From contig CAJQRZ010000031.1 of NCBI GenBank assembly GCA_905612435.1, positions 1 through 64,000 of the forward strand: a stretch of 64,000 bases of DNA. The letters run 5' to 3'. The stretch's first letter is position 1. Each line of letters starts with the position of its first letter. The translations under genes were made by a program, and so were the position numbers. Source of the DNA: an uncultured Candidatus Pelagibacter sp. Its GTDB lineage: Bacteria > Pseudomonadota > Alphaproteobacteria > Pelagibacterales > Pelagibacteraceae. Positions 30,628 through 36,382 of the stretch are shown here, one piece after another. The notes beneath the pieces were generated by a model. That model had not been told where the DNA came from. It ran no database searches and saw nothing but the letters and a program-made list of their open reading frames with translations.

Positions 30628-30918
30628 TTGGCTATTGTAAAATCAAAACTTTTAAAACAACTCACAGATAACTACCCAAATTTTTTAAAAAGAGATTTAG
30701 AAAAATTTTTAAATATTTTTTTAAATGAAATTAAAAATTCTCTAAAAAGAGGTGAAAGAGTTGAGTTAAGAGGATTTGGAATATGGTCGACACATTTACA
30801 AAAAGCAAGAATATCAAGAAACCCTAAAACTGGAGAGAAAATAGCCACTCCAGAAAAAAAAACAATTCACTTTAAAATGTCGAAAGAACTGTTTAAAAAA
30901 TTAAATAATGAAAAATAA
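30628..30918 (+). CDS. ihfB: Integration host factor subunit beta
   Basis: 96 residues from a TTG start at 30628, 6 nt after rpsA; no ATG is available before the conserved fold. HU/IHF family: RGERVELRGFGIWS and ARISRNPKTGEKI, with the intercalating proline in RNP. Position right after rpsA is the classical place for ihfB. It bends DNA at specific sites as a heterodimer with IhfA. The end overlaps pyrF by 11 nt. Confidence 0.93.
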   Translation: MAIVKSKLLKQLTDNYPNFLKRDLEKFLNIFLNEIKNSLKRGERVELRGFGIWSTHLQKARISRNPKTGEKIATPEKKTIHFKMSKELFKKLNNEK

Positions 30919-31585
30919 AAATATTTTTTTAGCCTGTGATGTATCAAGCCAAAAAGAAATATTAAGCTTATTAGATTTAATTCATGGAGATATTTTTGGA
31001 ATAAAAATTGGACTACAATTCATAACTCAAAGAAGTCCTGATGAGATAAGAGAGCTTTCAAAATTTAACAAGCCTATTTTTTATGATGGTAAGTTTTTTG
31101 ATATAAAAAATACACTTGTTGAATCAATTAAATCATTAGAAAAGTTAAAAGTAACTTATGCGACTGTGCATTTGCTTAATGGTTTGGATGCTCTTAAGAG
31201 CGCAAATGAAGCAGCAAAGGAGATAAATTTAAATTTATTGGGTGTTTCAGTTTTAACAAGTTTTAGTGATAATGATTTATCTAGTTTAGGATTTATAGAT
31301 AAAGTTGAAAATCAAGTTGAAAGGCTAATTAAAATCGCGATTGATGCAAATTTATTCGGAGTTATTTGTAGCCCCTTAGAAATAAAAATGATTAAAAAAA
31401 TTGCACCTAACTTAAAATGTTTTACACCTGGAATTAGAATGAATGATAATAAAGATGATCAAAAAAGAACTATGAATGCTAATGACGCTATTAAAGCAGG
31501 CAGTGATTGTTTAATAATTGGTCGACCAATTACTGAGGGAGACCCAAAAAAAAATATAAAATATATACTATCATCAATTGAATAG
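30908..31585 (+). CDS. pyrF: Orotidine 5'-phosphate decarboxylase
   Basis: 225 residues. Last step of UMP synthesis. The catalytic D-x-K-x-x-D is present as DGKFFDIKNT (normally DLKFHDIPNT), the N-terminal IFLACDV carries the first aspartate, and the phosphate loop is IGRPIT near the end with CFTPGIR before it. Overlaps ihfB by 11 nt and abuts trpF, whose start follows the stop with no gap. The pyrF-trpF pairing is seen in other Alphaproteobacteria. Confidence 0.94.
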   Translation: MKNKNIFLACDVSSQKEILSLLDLIHGDIFGIKIGLQFITQRSPDEIRELSKFNKPIFYDGKFFDIKNTLVESIKSLEKLKVTYATVHLLNGLDALKSANEAAKEINLNLLGVSVLTSFSDNDLSSLGFIDKVENQVERLIKIAIDANLFGVICSPLEIKMIKKIAPNLKCFTPGIRMNDNKDDQKRTMNANDAIKAGSDCLIIGRPITEGDPKKNIKYILSSIE

Positions 31586-32209
31586 ATGAAATCAAAAATT
31601 TGTGGAATCTTAGACTCAAAGACTTTAGAGTATTTAACTAGTCACCCTTATCCTCCTCAATATATTGGTTTTATAGTTAACTATCACAAATCTAAAAGAT
31701 TTGTTGAGTATAATAATCTTAAGAAACTTTTAAAGATTAATAAAAAAAATTCTAAATATGTTGCAGTGTTGGTAAAACCAAATAAAGATATTTTAGAAAA
31801 AATTAAAATACTACCTTTTGATTATTATCAAATTTATGATTGTACATCAAATGAAATCAAATCTATTAAAAAAAAATATAATAAAAAAATTATTATTGCG
31901 ATTACGGTAAATAATCTAAAAGATGTTTTAAAACATCAAGACTATAAAGATGTTGCTGATATAATTTTATTTGACAGTAAGGGTTATGAAAAAAGCTTAG
32001 CTTTTGATCATAAGTTAATTAGTGATTTAAAACTAAATAAAGAATTAATGTTAGCAGGTAATATCCAAATTGAAGACAACCTTGAAAGTTATAAAAAAAT
32101 AGCAGATATTGTAGATATTTCTGGAGGTCTAGAAACATCTGGATTAAAAGATATTTCAAAAGTAAATATTTTTTTAAACAAAATTAAACAAATTAATGAT
32201 GAAACTTAA
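31586..32209 (+). CDS. trpF: Phosphoribosylanthranilate isomerase
   Basis: 207 residues, a TIM barrel. Tryptophan synthesis, step three. The catalytic cysteine is in KICGI (residues 4-8) and the aspartate in LFDSKGYEK. Several usual blocks are altered: SPR is SKR, the LAGG phosphate loop is LAGN, and the late segment reads VDISGGLETSGLKD, where VDVSSGVE is usual. Called from family pattern plus position immediately before trpB and trpA. It is the most divergent TrpF-like sequence I would still assign with confidence. Overlaps trpB by 14 nt. Confidence 0.85.
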   Translation: MKSKICGILDSKTLEYLTSHPYPPQYIGFIVNYHKSKRFVEYNNLKKLLKINKKNSKYVAVLVKPNKDILEKIKILPFDYYQIYDCTSNEIKSIKKKYNKKIIIAITVNNLKDVLKHQDYKDVADIILFDSKGYEKSLAFDHKLISDLKLNKELMLAGNIQIEDNLESYKKIADIVDISGGLETSGLKDISKVNIFLNKIKQINDET

Positions 32210-33431
32210 AAAAAAAATTCCCTTAATTGATCAACATGACAAACATGGTTTTTGGGGGGGTAAATTTGGTGGAAACTTTATTCCAGAAACTTTAAAAAAA
32301 CCTGTTGACGATTTAACAGATCTATTCGAAAATCTTAGATATAATAAAAAGTTTTTAAATCAAAGAAATTATTATTTTAAAAATTATGTTGGTTCACCTA
32401 CTCCACTTATAAAACTTCAAAATCTATCAGATCATCTAGGTGGTGCTCAAATATGGTCTAAAATGGTATCTGAGGCTAACGGTGGTGCACACAAAATTTA
32501 TAATGCGACAGTTCATTGTCTCATTGCAAAAAAAGCAAATAAAAAATATATCGTAGGTGATACAGGTGCAGGATATGCAGGAAAGATGCTTAGTATGGCA
32601 GCTAAAAAATTTGGTTTAAAATGTAAAATATTCATGGGCATAAAAGACATGAAAAGACAAAAACCTAATTGTGAAGCTATGAGAAAAAACGGTGCAGAAA
32701 TAATACCTGTTTACTCTGGCAGCCAAACGCTTGTTGATGCTGTAAGTGAATGTATGAGATATTGGGTTTCAAACTGCGACACAACTCATATGTGTGTAGG
32801 ATCAACAGTTGGTCCAAATATATTTGTTAAAATATGTGGATGGAGTACCGCTCAAATTTCAAGAGAATTAAAAGTTCAAATTAAATCAGAATTTAAAAAA
32901 ATTCCTAATAAAATAGAATTGATAAACTGTGTTGGTGGAGGTAGTTCAGCATATGGTTTTTGGAGTGAATTTATTGACTATGATAAAAAACAAATTAAAC
33001 TAATTGGAGTTGAGGCAGGTGGACCTAAAAATTCAAAATTACATGCTGCACCTTTAACAAATAATGCAAAACTTGGAATTCTTCATGGTGCGGCTGCTTA
33101 TGTTTGTCAAAACTCTGAAGGGCAAATTAGTGAAACTGAGTCTATATCAGCTGGATTAGATTACCCAGGTGTTTCTCCTATACATTGTTACTTAAAGGAT
33201 ACTAAAAGAGCGAGTTATACATCTGCAACTGACGAGGAAGCCTTAAATGCTTATAAGCTAGTGACAAAACTTGAAAAAATAAATCCTAGTTTAGAGCCAT
33301 GTCATGCCTTTGCGGAAGCAATTAAAAATGCACCAAAATTAAGCAAAGATACAATTGTTATCGTTAATTCATGTGGGGATGCTAAAAAAGATAGAGATAT
33401 TCTAAAAGCAAGGCTGAGAAAAATTAAATGA
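32196..33431 (+). CDS. trpB: Tryptophan synthase beta chain, divergent
   Basis: 411 residues. Aligns without gaps (offset 13) to Salmonella TrpB over the catalytic core. PLP lysine K100 and the preceding His are kept (NGGAHKIYNA). Other key places differ: Glu109 is Asp122, the loop TGAGQH is TGAGYA (residues 123-128), Lys167 is Val180, GPHPYP is GPNIFV (N208 for His195), GGGSNA is GGGSSA, and the C-terminal GRGDKD loop is CGDAKKD. Asp305 (GLDYP) and Glu350 are kept. Two adjacent ATGs at 32196 and 32199 are possible starts. In operon order trpF-trpB-trpA. Confidence 0.92.
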   Translation: MMKLKKKIPLIDQHDKHGFWGGKFGGNFIPETLKKPVDDLTDLFENLRYNKKFLNQRNYYFKNYVGSPTPLIKLQNLSDHLGGAQIWSKMVSEANGGAHKIYNATVHCLIAKKANKKYIVGDTGAGYAGKMLSMAAKKFGLKCKIFMGIKDMKRQKPNCEAMRKNGAEIIPVYSGSQTLVDAVSECMRYWVSNCDTTHMCVGSTVGPNIFVKICGWSTAQISRELKVQIKSEFKKIPNKIELINCVGGGSSAYGFWSEFIDYDKKQIKLIGVEAGGPKNSKLHAAPLTNNAKLGILHGAAAYVCQNSEGQISETESISAGLDYPGVSPIHCYLKDTKRASYTSATDEEALNAYKLVTKLEKINPSLEPCHAFAEAIKNAPKLSKDTIVIVNSCGDAKKDRDILKARLRKIK

Positions 33432-34231
33432 AAGTTTCTTTAATTAACTCAACTTTTAAAAAAACTAAAAAAGAGAATAGACCTGCGCTTTTAACTTATA
33501 CTGTTGCAGGTGATAATAATAAAAAAATCTCTCTAGAAATATTAAAATCAATTTCAAATTATGCTGATATTTGTGAAATAGGTTTTCCACACAATACTCC
33601 AATTGCTGATGGTGGCCAAATTCAATCTAGTACTTATCGAGCACTAAAAAATGGTATTAAAATAAAAGACGTATTTTCTATAGTTAAAAATTTTAAAAAA
33701 TTAAAAGCAGATAAGCCTGTAATATTAATGGGTTATTATAATATGATTTATCAATATGGTGATAATAATTTTATAAATATTTGTAAAAAAGTAGGTGTTG
33801 ATGGTTTAATCGTGATTGATTTGCCTTATCCAGAAAACAAAATTTTTGCTAAAAAATGTAAGAAAAAAAATATAAGTTTTATTCAATTAATATCTCCTAC
33901 AACTTCTAAAAATAGAATGAAAAAAATTATGCAAGATTCCCATGATATGGTTTACTATATAAGTATGTTGTCAACGACAGGTGGAAAATTAAAAGTTTCT
34001 CCTAAAAAAATTCTTGAAAATTACAACAAGATAAAGAACCTAAATAAAAAAAAAAATATTGTAATTGGCTTTGGTATTACAGAAAAAACCATTGGTTCAT
34101 TAAAAAAAGCTGATGGATTGGTAGTTGGTAGTGCTTTATGTGGAGAAATTTCAAAATCAGTTGAAAAAAGACAAAATCCTGTCACAAATGTAACTAATAT
34201 TGTTAGAAGATTAAAAAATAAAATAATATGA
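33428..34231 (+). CDS. trpA: Tryptophan synthase alpha chain, divergent
   Basis: 267 residues. Cleaves indole-3-glycerol phosphate. Catalytic Glu (E50, E49 in Salmonella) and Asp (D61, D60 there) are kept in EIGFPHNTPIADGG. The intervening FSDP has become HNTP, so Asp56, which normally salt-bridges TrpB Lys167, is Thr57. The mobile loop 6 near STTGGKLKV also differs from the usual SGVTG. The phosphate site VIGFGI and VVGSAL is intact. Overlaps trpB and accD by 4 nt each (ATGA). Confidence 0.93.
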   Translation: MKVSLINSTFKKTKKENRPALLTYTVAGDNNKKISLEILKSISNYADICEIGFPHNTPIADGGQIQSSTYRALKNGIKIKDVFSIVKNFKKLKADKPVILMGYYNMIYQYGDNNFINICKKVGVDGLIVIDLPYPENKIFAKKCKKKNISFIQLISPTTSKNRMKKIMQDSHDMVYYISMLSTTGGKLKVSPKKILENYNKIKNLNKKKNIVIGFGITEKTIGSLKKADGLVVGSALCGEISKSVEKRQNPVTNVTNIVRRLKNKII

Positions 34232-35160
34232 ACTGGATAACCAAAAAACTATTTCACTTAAGTCAAAAAATAAAAACTGTAATAAAGCAAAGGCCCACAA
34301 AAGAAGAAATTGAAAATAGTGATTGGACTTCTTGTTGCAAAGGACCAATTTTAAAAAAAGAATTAGAGGAAAACTTATGGGTTTGTCCTTCTTGCAACAA
34401 GCATCACAGAATTAATTGTAAACAACGATTTGATATTGTTTTTGGAAAAAATAACTATGAAATATTAAAGACTCCAATTCCACAAGATGACCCTCTAAAT
34501 TGGACAGACTCAAAATCTTATAAAGAAAGATTAAAAGATGCGAGAAAAAAAACAGGAATGGAGTGTGGTATCATGGTAGTTAATACAAAAATTAATAACA
34601 TTAATATTACAGCATGTGCTTCAGATTTTACTTTCATAGGTGGTTCAGTTGGAGCTGCAGAAGGTGAAGCAATACTTTGTGGAATTCAGCATGCAATAGA
34701 GAATAACCAACCTTTCATAAATTTTACATCAGGTGGTGGTATGAGAATGTTTGAATCTTTAATTGCACTATCCCAAATGACAAGAACAACATTAGCAATA
34801 AATGAACTTAAAAAAAATAATCTTCCTTATTTTGTTTGTTTAACAGATCCAACTGCTGGTGGAATTACTGCATCATATGCAATGCTTGGTGATATTGCTT
34901 TTGCTGAGCCTGGTGCCCTTGTTGCTTTTGCAGGAGCTAGAGTTATTCAGGGAACTGTCAAAGAAGAATTACCTGAAGGCTTTCAAAAAAGTGAATATGT
35001 TGAAAAAAGTGGTTTTATAGATTTAATAGTTGAAAGAAAAAATTTGAGAGAAAGAATTGGTTCTATATTATCAATACTGTTAAAGAAAAACTCTGCTATA
35101 AAATCTGAAACAAATGAAACTCCAGAAGCTAATAGAACGCTTACAAAAGCTGCATCCTAA
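34228..35160 (+). CDS. accD: Acetyl-CoA carboxylase carboxyltransferase subunit beta
   Basis: 310 residues. Partner of AccA. The carboxyltransferase core has GGSVGAAEGEAI, INFTSGGGMRMFES, LTDPTAGGITASYAMLGD and GARVIQ. The zinc finger reads CC at residues 36-37 and CPSC at 53-56, so the first CxxC pair of E. coli is shortened to adjacent cysteines; zinc binding may still occur. The trpA-accD-folC order is standard in Proteobacteria. Overlaps folC by 47 nt, the longest same-strand overlap I accept here. Confidence 0.96.
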   Translation: MNWITKKLFHLSQKIKTVIKQRPTKEEIENSDWTSCCKGPILKKELEENLWVCPSCNKHHRINCKQRFDIVFGKNNYEILKTPIPQDDPLNWTDSKSYKERLKDARKKTGMECGIMVVNTKINNINITACASDFTFIGGSVGAAEGEAILCGIQHAIENNQPFINFTSGGGMRMFESLIALSQMTRTTLAINELKKNNLPYFVCLTDPTAGGITASYAMLGDIAFAEPGALVAFAGARVIQGTVKEELPEGFQKSEYVEKSGFIDLIVERKNLRERIGSILSILLKKNSAIKSETNETPEANRTLTKAAS

Positions 35161-36382
35161 AGAAATCGACCTTAGTTTAGAACGAACTAGAAATCTTTGT
35201 CAGAAATTGGGAAATCCTCAAGATCAAATTAATTGTATTTCCATTGTTGGAACGAATGGAAAATATTCAACTATACAAGCGCTCTATGCAATATTCAAAG
35301 AGGCTAATTATAAATGCAATATTTACACGAGCCCCCATATACAAAAAATTAATGAAAGATTTGTCTATAATAACGAACCCTTAACCGATGATATATTAAC
35401 AAATTTACTAAGTGAAGTAGAAGAAGTTAATAATAACGATCCAATTACCTTTTTTGAAATTTTAACTGTTGCTTATTTCCATTATGCTAAAAAATACCCT
35501 AAAAATATTAACTTAATTGAGTCTGGTCTATTTCATAGATTCGATGCAACTAATATCTTAAACAAAAATTTAGCAAGCATTGTCACTGCAATTGGATACG
35601 ACCATTTAGATTGGCTACCAGATAAAGAGCATACTGTAAAAAAAATTATATTTGAAAAAACTTCATCTCTCTTAAATTCAAAAATTATCGTAGCGAAACA
35701 AACTTCAAATGAAATTAATAAACATATTGAAAATACAATAAAGAAAAATCAATCAAAAAAGATAATTTTTAATAAAGATTACAGTTTTACATTTAAAGAA
35801 AATAATTTTTTTTACTTTGAGGATGAATTTGGTGGAATAAAGCTTCCAAAACCTAATCTACTAGGTGAGTTCCAATTAGAAAACATCTCAACTGCAATTG
35901 CAACTGCTAGACAATTAACAGATTATAAAATTACTGAAGATCATATAAAAAATGGGGTCACTAAAATTGAAAGTGTTGCAAGACTTCAAGAAATAAAATC
36001 AGGAAAACTAAAAGATTTAGTTAAAAATAATAAATTATTTGTAGATGGTTCTCACAATCCATTAGGCGCTAAGGTCTTAAACTATCATCTTCAAAGTTTA
36101 CATTGTAAAAAACATATTATTTTAGGAATGATGGCTAATAAGAATCATAACGAATATATTAAATATTTTAAAGATATTGAAACTCTAACAACAATTAATA
36201 TTCCAAACCAGCCAAATGCTATTAAAGGAAATAAACTTAAAGAAAAAATTAAAAACTTTTCTAATATCCAGAACAAAAACTCAATTAAAGAAGCTTTATC
36301 TTCAATAAACCTTAAAGAAAATGATATTATTCTAATTACAGGATCCTTATATCTTGCAGGAGAAGTTTTAAACTTAAATTAA
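35114..36382 (+). CDS. folC: Folylpolyglutamate synthase / dihydrofolate synthase
   Basis: 422 residues, Mur-ligase family. Adds glutamate to folates. The N-terminal [17 protein letters not shown] segment is diagnostic and starts close to the ATG at 35114, supporting the long overlap with accD. P-loop [12 protein letters not shown], the TSPHI block, and the C-terminal [10 protein letters not shown] segment are present. Last gene of the rnd-to-folC run; its stop overlaps the convergent trxA stop by 4 nt. Confidence 0.94.

Follow-up and report, generated by a model that had tools for sequence, protein, structure and literature searches.

Matched residue changes in the TrpB and TrpA subunits of SAR11 tryptophan synthase, possibly with looser coupling between them

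The trpB and trpA genes of an uncultured Candidatus Pelagibacter sp. lie side by side in the 64,000-nucleotide stretch of contig CAJQRZ010000031.1 analyzed here (hereafter the window), trpB at 32196..33431 and trpA at 33428..34231, both on the + strand like every other feature reported below. The tryptophan synthase subunits they encode, beta and alpha, are altered at catalytic and subunit-contact residues, and by sequence comparison this altered TrpB/TrpA is a lineage trait of SAR11 (Pelagibacterales). We propose, with a probability of about 0.48, that the pair is the cell's tryptophan synthase, making tryptophan from indole-glycerol phosphate and serine with what would be a re-cut beta site and a looser coupling between the subunits.

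Residues are numbered after TrpB and TrpA of Escherichia coli K-12 (L082), whose numbering we take to be that of the Salmonella proteins as well; the residues used as a ruler (TrpB Lys87, Glu109, Gln114-His115, and Lys167; TrpA Glu49, Asp56, and Asp60) are at their expected positions. Counts compare 129 distinct TrpBs of the SAR11 type (type I) with 121 ordinary TrpBs. The groups were set by residues 167, 109, and alpha56, so that Asp109 in type I is definitional in these counts, which moreover stem from one clade and are not independent; two fragments (L074 and L176) fall in no group. In the window, the catalytic acid Glu109 is shortened to Asp122 (32559..32561; both GAT and GAC are in use in type I), while Glu is found in 121 of 121 ordinary TrpBs; the standard catalytic glutamate is thus missing. 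Gln114-His115 are Tyr127-Ala128 (32574..32579; Tyr 123 and Met 6, Ala 122, Phe 5, and Asn 2 among the 129), Arg148 is Ala161 (32676..32678; Ala 110, Ser 13, Phe 5, Arg 1), and Lys167, which contacts TrpA residue 56, is Val180 (32733..32735; Val in 129/129, with GTT, GTA, GTG, and GTC all in use). His195 is Asn208 (32817..32819) in a GPNIFV motif that replaces GPHPYP, and GDAKKD replaces GRGDKD, with Asp395-Lys398 (33378..33389) at RGDK 379–382. The PLP (pyridoxal phosphate) lysine is kept as Lys100 (position 87; 32493..32495) in all 129 type I proteins. The GGGS of the phosphate loop is kept in 128/128 with the residue, and the Asn that follows it (position 236) is replaced by Ser251 (32946..32948; loop GGGSSA), Ser occurring in 128/128 type I proteins with the residue and Asn in 121/121 ordinary ones. 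The usual SAR11 trpB encodes Asp109, Tyr or Met114, Ala115 (rarely Phe or Asn), Val167, and Ser236, and has no GRGDKD motif.

In TrpA, both catalytic residues are retained: Glu50 (position 49; 33575..33577) in 128/128 type I proteins and Asp61 (position 60; 33608..33610) as Asp in 127 and Glu in 1. The residue that contacts TrpB position 167, Asp56 in 110/110 ordinary proteins, is Thr57 in the window (33596..33598) and Thr in 108, Ala in 14, and Cys in 6 of 128 type I proteins. In loop 6, Gly181 is replaced by Ser182 (33971..33973), with Ser in 125 and Asn in 2 of the 127 type I proteins with the residue, vs. Gly in 110/110 ordinary ones. All residue changes, motif replacements, and retained catalytic residues listed by the first-pass annotation, a reading of the letters of this DNA alone, were reproduced. 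Beyond that list, TrpB is also changed at Arg77, His82, Asn89, Arg148, Asn171, and Asn236, and TrpA at Phe54 and Gly181. The TrpB charge pair Arg141-Asp305, beta-Arg175, alpha-Thr183, and alpha-Asp130 are kept in type I.

Glu109 stabilizes the indole nitrogen during C–C bond formation, and His115 and Phe306 set the width of the indole site (PMC9512447). In the Salmonella enzyme, Arg141-Asp305 closes TrpB, and Gln114 bonds Asn145 and Arg148 when the subunit is closed (PMC9512447). Asp109 and Ala115 would accordingly give a shorter acid in a wider indole site, part of which Tyr114 may fill.

The pattern is widespread in SAR11. The nearest named loci—i.e. the best 80 of 548 relatives, at 81–89% TrpB identity—are all assigned to Candidatus Pelagibacter, Pelagibacteraceae, or Pelagibacterales, and 80 of 80 have Asp109, Tyr114, Ala115, Val167, and TrpA Thr56. 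Across the order, 361 of 397 genomes have a TrpB match (E 1e-30 or better), and 341 of these 361 are type I by score. The 20 low scorers carry other types: 12 have TrpA Glu56 (the E56 type), 5 have Leu167 (type V), and 3 are ordinary; a sixth type V TrpB is found in G017. Non-SAR11 matches to the window's TrpB in 289 genomes of the class do not exceed 46% identity among the matches listed, in part of which the residues were checked. A DNA motif pattern for type I, which misses the Met114 subtypes, is present in 2 of 398 phylum genomes (the window's own and G158), both SAR11. Relatives of type V in the same 398 genomes reach at most 42% identity among the matches listed, and the window's TrpB has no match among viral contigs. 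The first-pass annotation had allowed that the substitutions might be scattered or unshared among relatives; they are common to the lineage. One subtype of type I (L170–L174) has TrpB Met114-Phe115 with TrpA Cys56, alpha56 remaining non-acidic while these same positions vary.

On TIGR00263, whose cut-off is 392.45 bits, the window's TrpB falls marginally short with 391.8, and two relatives lie above the line (L028, 402.5; L062, 406.5). Three ordinary TrpBs score 624–638 bits, one type V protein 316, and two E56-type proteins 384 and 467. Residues 22–402 align with solved TrpBs, the best PDB sequence match being chain 5ey5_B of LBCA-TrpB, a reconstructed ancestral protein (E 1.8e-99). An AlphaFold model is weak (mean pLDDT 63.9) and comes from a shallow alignment of 30 rows at 81–89% identity to the window, so that active and interface sites are unreadable; a Foldseek search with it against the PDB returns TrpB structures at a template modeling score of about 0.68, which is informative for the fold only. 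The neighboring TrpA scores 205 bits on TIGR00262, twice the cut-off of 102.35, and 223.9 bits on PF00290.

SAR11-type TrpBs are ∼38–43% identical to E. coli TrpB (40% for the window). They share with the E. coli and Salmonella enzymes the fold, the PLP lysine, the GGGS loop, Arg141-Asp305, the catalytic TrpA residues, and the adjacency of trpB and trpA, and differ from them by E109D, Q114Y, H115A, R148A, K167V, N236S, and loss of GRGDKD in TrpB and by D56T and G181S in TrpA. With TrpB2 (TIGR01415) they share the PLP fold, and four SAR11 TrpB2 copies also have a residue other than Lys at position 167. These copies differ in being 454–475 amino acids long, in scoring 608–636 bits on TIGR01415, and in having no TrpA in the stretch examined; the window's protein reaches only 98.1 bits on that model (cut-off 518.85) and is not a TrpB2. 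Kagan et al. 2008 (PMC2395257) placed trpB of P. ubique and the Sargasso Sea in a third group, nearer to trpB1 than to trpB2, single-copy and judged functional, and the window's trpB belongs to this lineage by gene order and identity. The trpB cluster has thus been known since 2008. The portions of Kagan et al. 2008 used here describe neither residue changes nor TrpA co-changes, subtypes, or in-place swaps, and a literature search that took in part of the candidate papers found no residue-level description of the SAR11 changes.

We wondered whether the changes at the subunit contact are linked, as the first-pass annotation had proposed. The contact between alpha56 and beta167 is taken, as in the first-pass annotation, to be a salt bridge. 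A 2001 paper by Weber-Ban et al. names salt bridges in its title, and we found no open paper that states this contact as one. Residues alpha56 and beta167 both contact beta-Tyr279 (PMC8187860). Pairs were scored in 256 cases, i.e. 270 distinct TrpBs minus 14 for which TrpA was missing from the stretch or one of the scored sites fell in a gap. Lys167 always occurs with Asp or Glu at alpha56, and Val or Leu167 always with Thr, Ala, or Cys, in 256 of 256 distinct pairs; the same rule holds in a definition-free table of all 260 pairs with every residue present, duplicates included. In a tree of 69 TrpBs, beta167 and alpha56 each change twice, once on the type I stem and once on the type V stem. 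The proposed co-variation is thereby upheld, over two events. None of the 134 type I and type V pairs has this charge pair.

A second charge pair behaves in a complementary way. Among the 256 pairs, 109 have both 167-56 and 141-305, 134 have only 141-305, 13 have only 167-56, and none has neither. Specifically, 167-56 is lost from types I and V but 141-305 survives in both, residue 141 being Lys in type V, and the E56 type keeps 167-56 and lacks Asp305; rereading by pairwise alignment to E. coli agrees for the 12 E56, three of six type V, and three type I rows. Type V TrpB also lacks Gln114 and Arg148. With about four events behind it, this either-or relation would be a pattern to test and no rule.

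A further link to subunit coupling comes from enzymes that work largely without TrpA. Experiments on LBCA-TrpB and Pelodictyon TrpB trace their high degree of TrpA-independence to six residues (PMC11917138). These sites (Glu36, Glu42, Thr53, Ser187, Ala279, and Met280) map through the LBCA alignment to positions 52, 58, 69, 203, 299, and 300 of the window's protein, and the mapping is supported because the modal residues of ordinary TrpBs at them (A, D, S, T, N, and R) are those of the dependent Anc3 state. Type I proteins mostly have K, D, T, S, A, and A (75/125). The window has Thr69 (32400..32402; Thr in 127/127 type I proteins with the residue, 11/121 ordinary) and Ser203 (32802..32804; 129/129 vs. 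15/121), and at the alpha-beta interface Ala299-Ala300 (33090..33095), Ala299 being found in 125/128 type I and 1/121 ordinary proteins. Thr53, Ser187, and Ala279 are all three present in 122 of the 125 type I proteins and in 4 of the 6 of type V, and in none of the 121 ordinary or the 12 E56 proteins. The full stand-alone set is not reached, type I proteins having on average 3.06 of the six and at most four (n = 125). Thr53, Ser187, and Ala279 are shared with LBCA-TrpB and with plTrpB of Pelodictyon luteolum (PMC11917138); Glu36, Glu42, and Met280 mostly are not.

The two subunits also travel together. Among 133 Asp109 TrpBs, 132 have TrpA encoded in their own locus, and the sole exception (L175) is a fragment. 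Among 22 genomes that lack a TrpB match (20 of the 36 such genomes of the order, plus G021 and G060), 20 lack TrpA as well. SAR11 genomes with E56 or type V pairs have an unchanged gene order. For example, seven loci (L064, L067, and L182–L186) have trpF at 51–58% and accD at 61–75% identity to the window, but TrpB at 29–37% and TrpA at 27–35%; their flanks are thus about as close to the window as those of L069, a congeneric type I relative, with 57% for trpF and 68% for accD. For three more (L066, L187, and L189) the trpF side alone is as close to the window as in L069, and for eight (L065, L179–L181, L188, and L190–L192) neither flank is clearly close, several of these loci having a partial accD. 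Types I, V, and E56 each form a single clade in the TrpB tree and in the TrpA tree. The types of TrpA and TrpB thus appear to have been exchanged together, because a different pair sits between SAR11-like flanks, the clades match, and the two genes are absent jointly. Adjacency and co-inheritance of this kind are as expected of a TrpA-TrpB complex.

One explanation for so many lost residues would be that the gene pair is decaying, a reading that could draw on the loss of conserved positions, the low TIGR00263 score, and a trpB match that comes in two pieces in five genomes. We compared 132 type I loci, near-duplicates included, using TrpB pairs with dS of 0.2–1.2. The ratio of nonsynonymous to synonymous substitution rates (dN/dS) has a median of 0.053 for TrpB (range 0.009–0.28, 1362 pairs) and 0.134 for TrpA (range 0.024–0.502, 2528 pairs). 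Codons vary beneath the altered residues, with all four Val codons at Val167, both Asp codons at Asp109, and both Ser families at Ser236. The altered residues are under purifying selection and not in decay, because dN/dS is low and synonymous codons vary under residues that are held. In nearly every row listed, the trpB match is unbroken and free of internal stops, and the residues are identical in the 80 named loci. Decay is contradicted by this selection test and is highly improbable, and the earlier view of an undecayed pair is borne out. The two matches in each of the five genomes were rejected as second copies, being pieces of one gene, adjacent in four of the five. Two genomes of one genus (G634:C7:5312-6539 and G657:C1:91350-92559) have trpB as two overlapping pieces with a similar split and stops in the first piece, from either an assembly frameshift or a broken gene.

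A second, ordinary trpB-trpA pair, which would have spoken against the first-pass reading, was not found in the window's genome, in the 361 genomes of the order with a match, or in ten near-complete genomes. In the window's own genome (71.5% complete) no second trpB was found; another PALP gene of 384 amino acids was rejected as a TrpB at 30% identity over ∼120 residues. The ten near-complete genomes, type I by score and with residues confirmed in three (G158, G267, and G351), have three to four PALP genes each, of which one is of TrpB length (408–419 amino acids), and no second TrpB was found among them. A PALP gene of 457–503 amino acids was rejected as a TrpB2 for lack of any match to the window's TrpB at E 1e-3 (G158 and G012). 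Genuine TrpB2 genes (L068, L070, L072, and L073) occur in 4 of 61 SAR11 genomes, beside type I in G023 and G045 and with no other TrpB match seen in G024 and G020.

Could the beta subunit have another main reaction, in which the nucleophile is not indole or the donor is a derivative of serine? Asp109, Ala115, Tyr114, and Ser236 may reshape the donor, acceptor, and PLP pockets, and the engineered tyrosine synthase TmTyrS1 reportedly is changed at its Glu109-equivalent residue. Against such a reaction, the gene is the sole TrpB-like gene of TrpB length in the ten near-complete genomes, it adjoins trpF and trpA, and, of 24 genomes tested for trpC, 22 have it, the exceptions being the window's incomplete genome and G668. 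The only trpB of P. ubique HTCC1062 falls in the SAR11 cluster (PMC2395257). This strain has been grown in synthetic medium for which the listed nutrients are glycine, glycine betaine, pyruvate, dimethylsulfoniopropionate, and vitamins, tryptophan not being among these (PMC5069961). SAR11 Ia is described as having auxotrophies for key amino acids, with reference to glycine-serine work, in a text whose relevant part does not mention tryptophan (PMC10030771). On genetic grounds, the SAR11 pair very probably makes tryptophan, because a single TrpB stands beside trpF and trpA, trpC is kept, and HTCC1062 grows without listed tryptophan; another main reaction is improbable. The first-pass annotation had inferred altered beta chemistry or allostery. 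The former, taken as another product, is disfavored by the growth of HTCC1062 and its only trpB lying in the cluster, while altered allostery gains support, as something still to be inferred, because three TrpA-independence residues are present and the pair is exchanged as a unit. Six genomes at least 90% complete (G398, G421, G480, G481, G508, and G426) keep trpC and have no trpA and no TrpB match at E 1e-30, either because the assemblies have gaps or because the pathway has been lost in part.

In the reading we favor, indole-glycerol phosphate and serine would still be converted to tryptophan, at an indole site in which the acid is one carbon shorter and His115 and Gln114 are usually Ala and Tyr. 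With both partners lost from the contact Gln114-Arg148 and from the charge pair alpha56-beta167, TrpB may close and turn over with less help from TrpA, the signal from alpha to beta through loop 2 and helix 6 may be weak or rerouted, and the pair would be inherited and exchanged as one matched unit. That the dependence of TrpB on TrpA is clearly reduced has, in our estimate, about an even chance. A stronger version would be a naturally uncoupled synthase, its TrpB able to close alone like ancestral TrpB, indole being passed on without the alpha56-beta167 switch, Asp109 working in a widened pocket, the uncoupling having arisen a second time in a rare TrpB type that occupies the same place in other SAR11 genomes, and 167-56 and 141-305 serving as alternative locks that cannot both be lost; we consider this version unlikely.

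Several observations weigh against looser coupling, and some of them fit an ordinary coupled synthase on a long branch, in which compensated drift on the SAR11 stem and lineage-wide divergence produced the changes and coupling runs through other contacts as strongly as in E. coli. The double loss of the beta167/alpha56 pair comprises two independent events only, too few for significance in a sign test. The two branches are both long, at ∼1.5 changes per column (1.52 for the type I stem) and ∼2.9, and one of the events is on starred branches. The best NCBIfam models for trpF, ihfB, and accD of the window likewise give scores under their cut-offs, so the neighbors are divergent too, and part of the distance of TrpB from ordinary TrpB may be lineage-wide change. 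Compared with another SAR11 family (L071 and L076), trpF is 31%, accD 39–42%, and TrpB 66–68% identical; TrpB is well kept inside SAR11, because its identity between families exceeds that of trpF and accD. Arg141-Asp305, beta-Arg175, alpha-Thr183, and alpha-Asp130 are all retained, and the partnership persists, because trpA stays adjacent under selection in nearly every locus. Of the six stand-alone residues, type I mostly has no more than three, sites 36, 42, and 280 being mostly Lys, Asp, and Ala, and the stand-alone substitutions reported for the engineered Pyrococcus TrpB 2B9 are absent from the window's protein. Four of the six residues are found in L058, an ordinary TrpB that nonetheless keeps Lys167 and alpha-Asp56, and LBCA-TrpB, which stands alone, differs from the SAR11 type in keeping Glu109, Gln114-His115, and the lysine aligned with Lys167. 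The charge pair and TrpA-independence are therefore separable, because both of these proteins keep the lysine.

By contrast, other results fit the long branch poorly. Type I retains 93 of the positions that are at least 90% conserved in the 121 ordinary TrpBs and has lost the other 46, of which 26 are fixed (≥95%) for one new residue, unlike what relaxed constraint would predict; as far as the sequences can tell, the substitution pattern in TrpB exceeds chance. TrpC scores 237–256 bits in type I genomes (unsplit matches), vs. 258 in G039, a genome whose TrpB is ordinary, and the three stand-alone residues are enriched. The long-branch explanation is a serious possibility that falls somewhat short of probable.

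The pair lies in a run of genes on the same strand. Upstream are an ihfB/himD-like gene (30628..30918; 88.5 bits on NF001222, the model for integration host factor beta, which has a cut-off of 115), pyrF (30908..31585; TIGR01740, 157.4 bits, cut-off 92.3), and trpF (31586..32209; PF00697, 73.3 bits, cut-off 22.7; its best NCBIfam model gives 104 bits, below the cut-off of 216). Downstream are accD (34228..35160; TIGR00515, 278.1 bits, below the cut-off of 317.45) and folC (35114..36382; TIGR01499, 263.4 bits, cut-off 162.65).

Tryptophan synthase is a textbook case of substrate channeling and of activation between subunits. A very abundant marine lineage appears to run this enzyme although the usual catalytic glutamate and two of the contacts used to explain its switch are missing. 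The natural types, with both charge pairs or only one and with matched TrpA and TrpB at one locus, would form a panel for asking which contacts coupling needs, without recourse to reconstructed or engineered enzymes. Joint replacement of the pair possibly lets its two halves depend less on each other.

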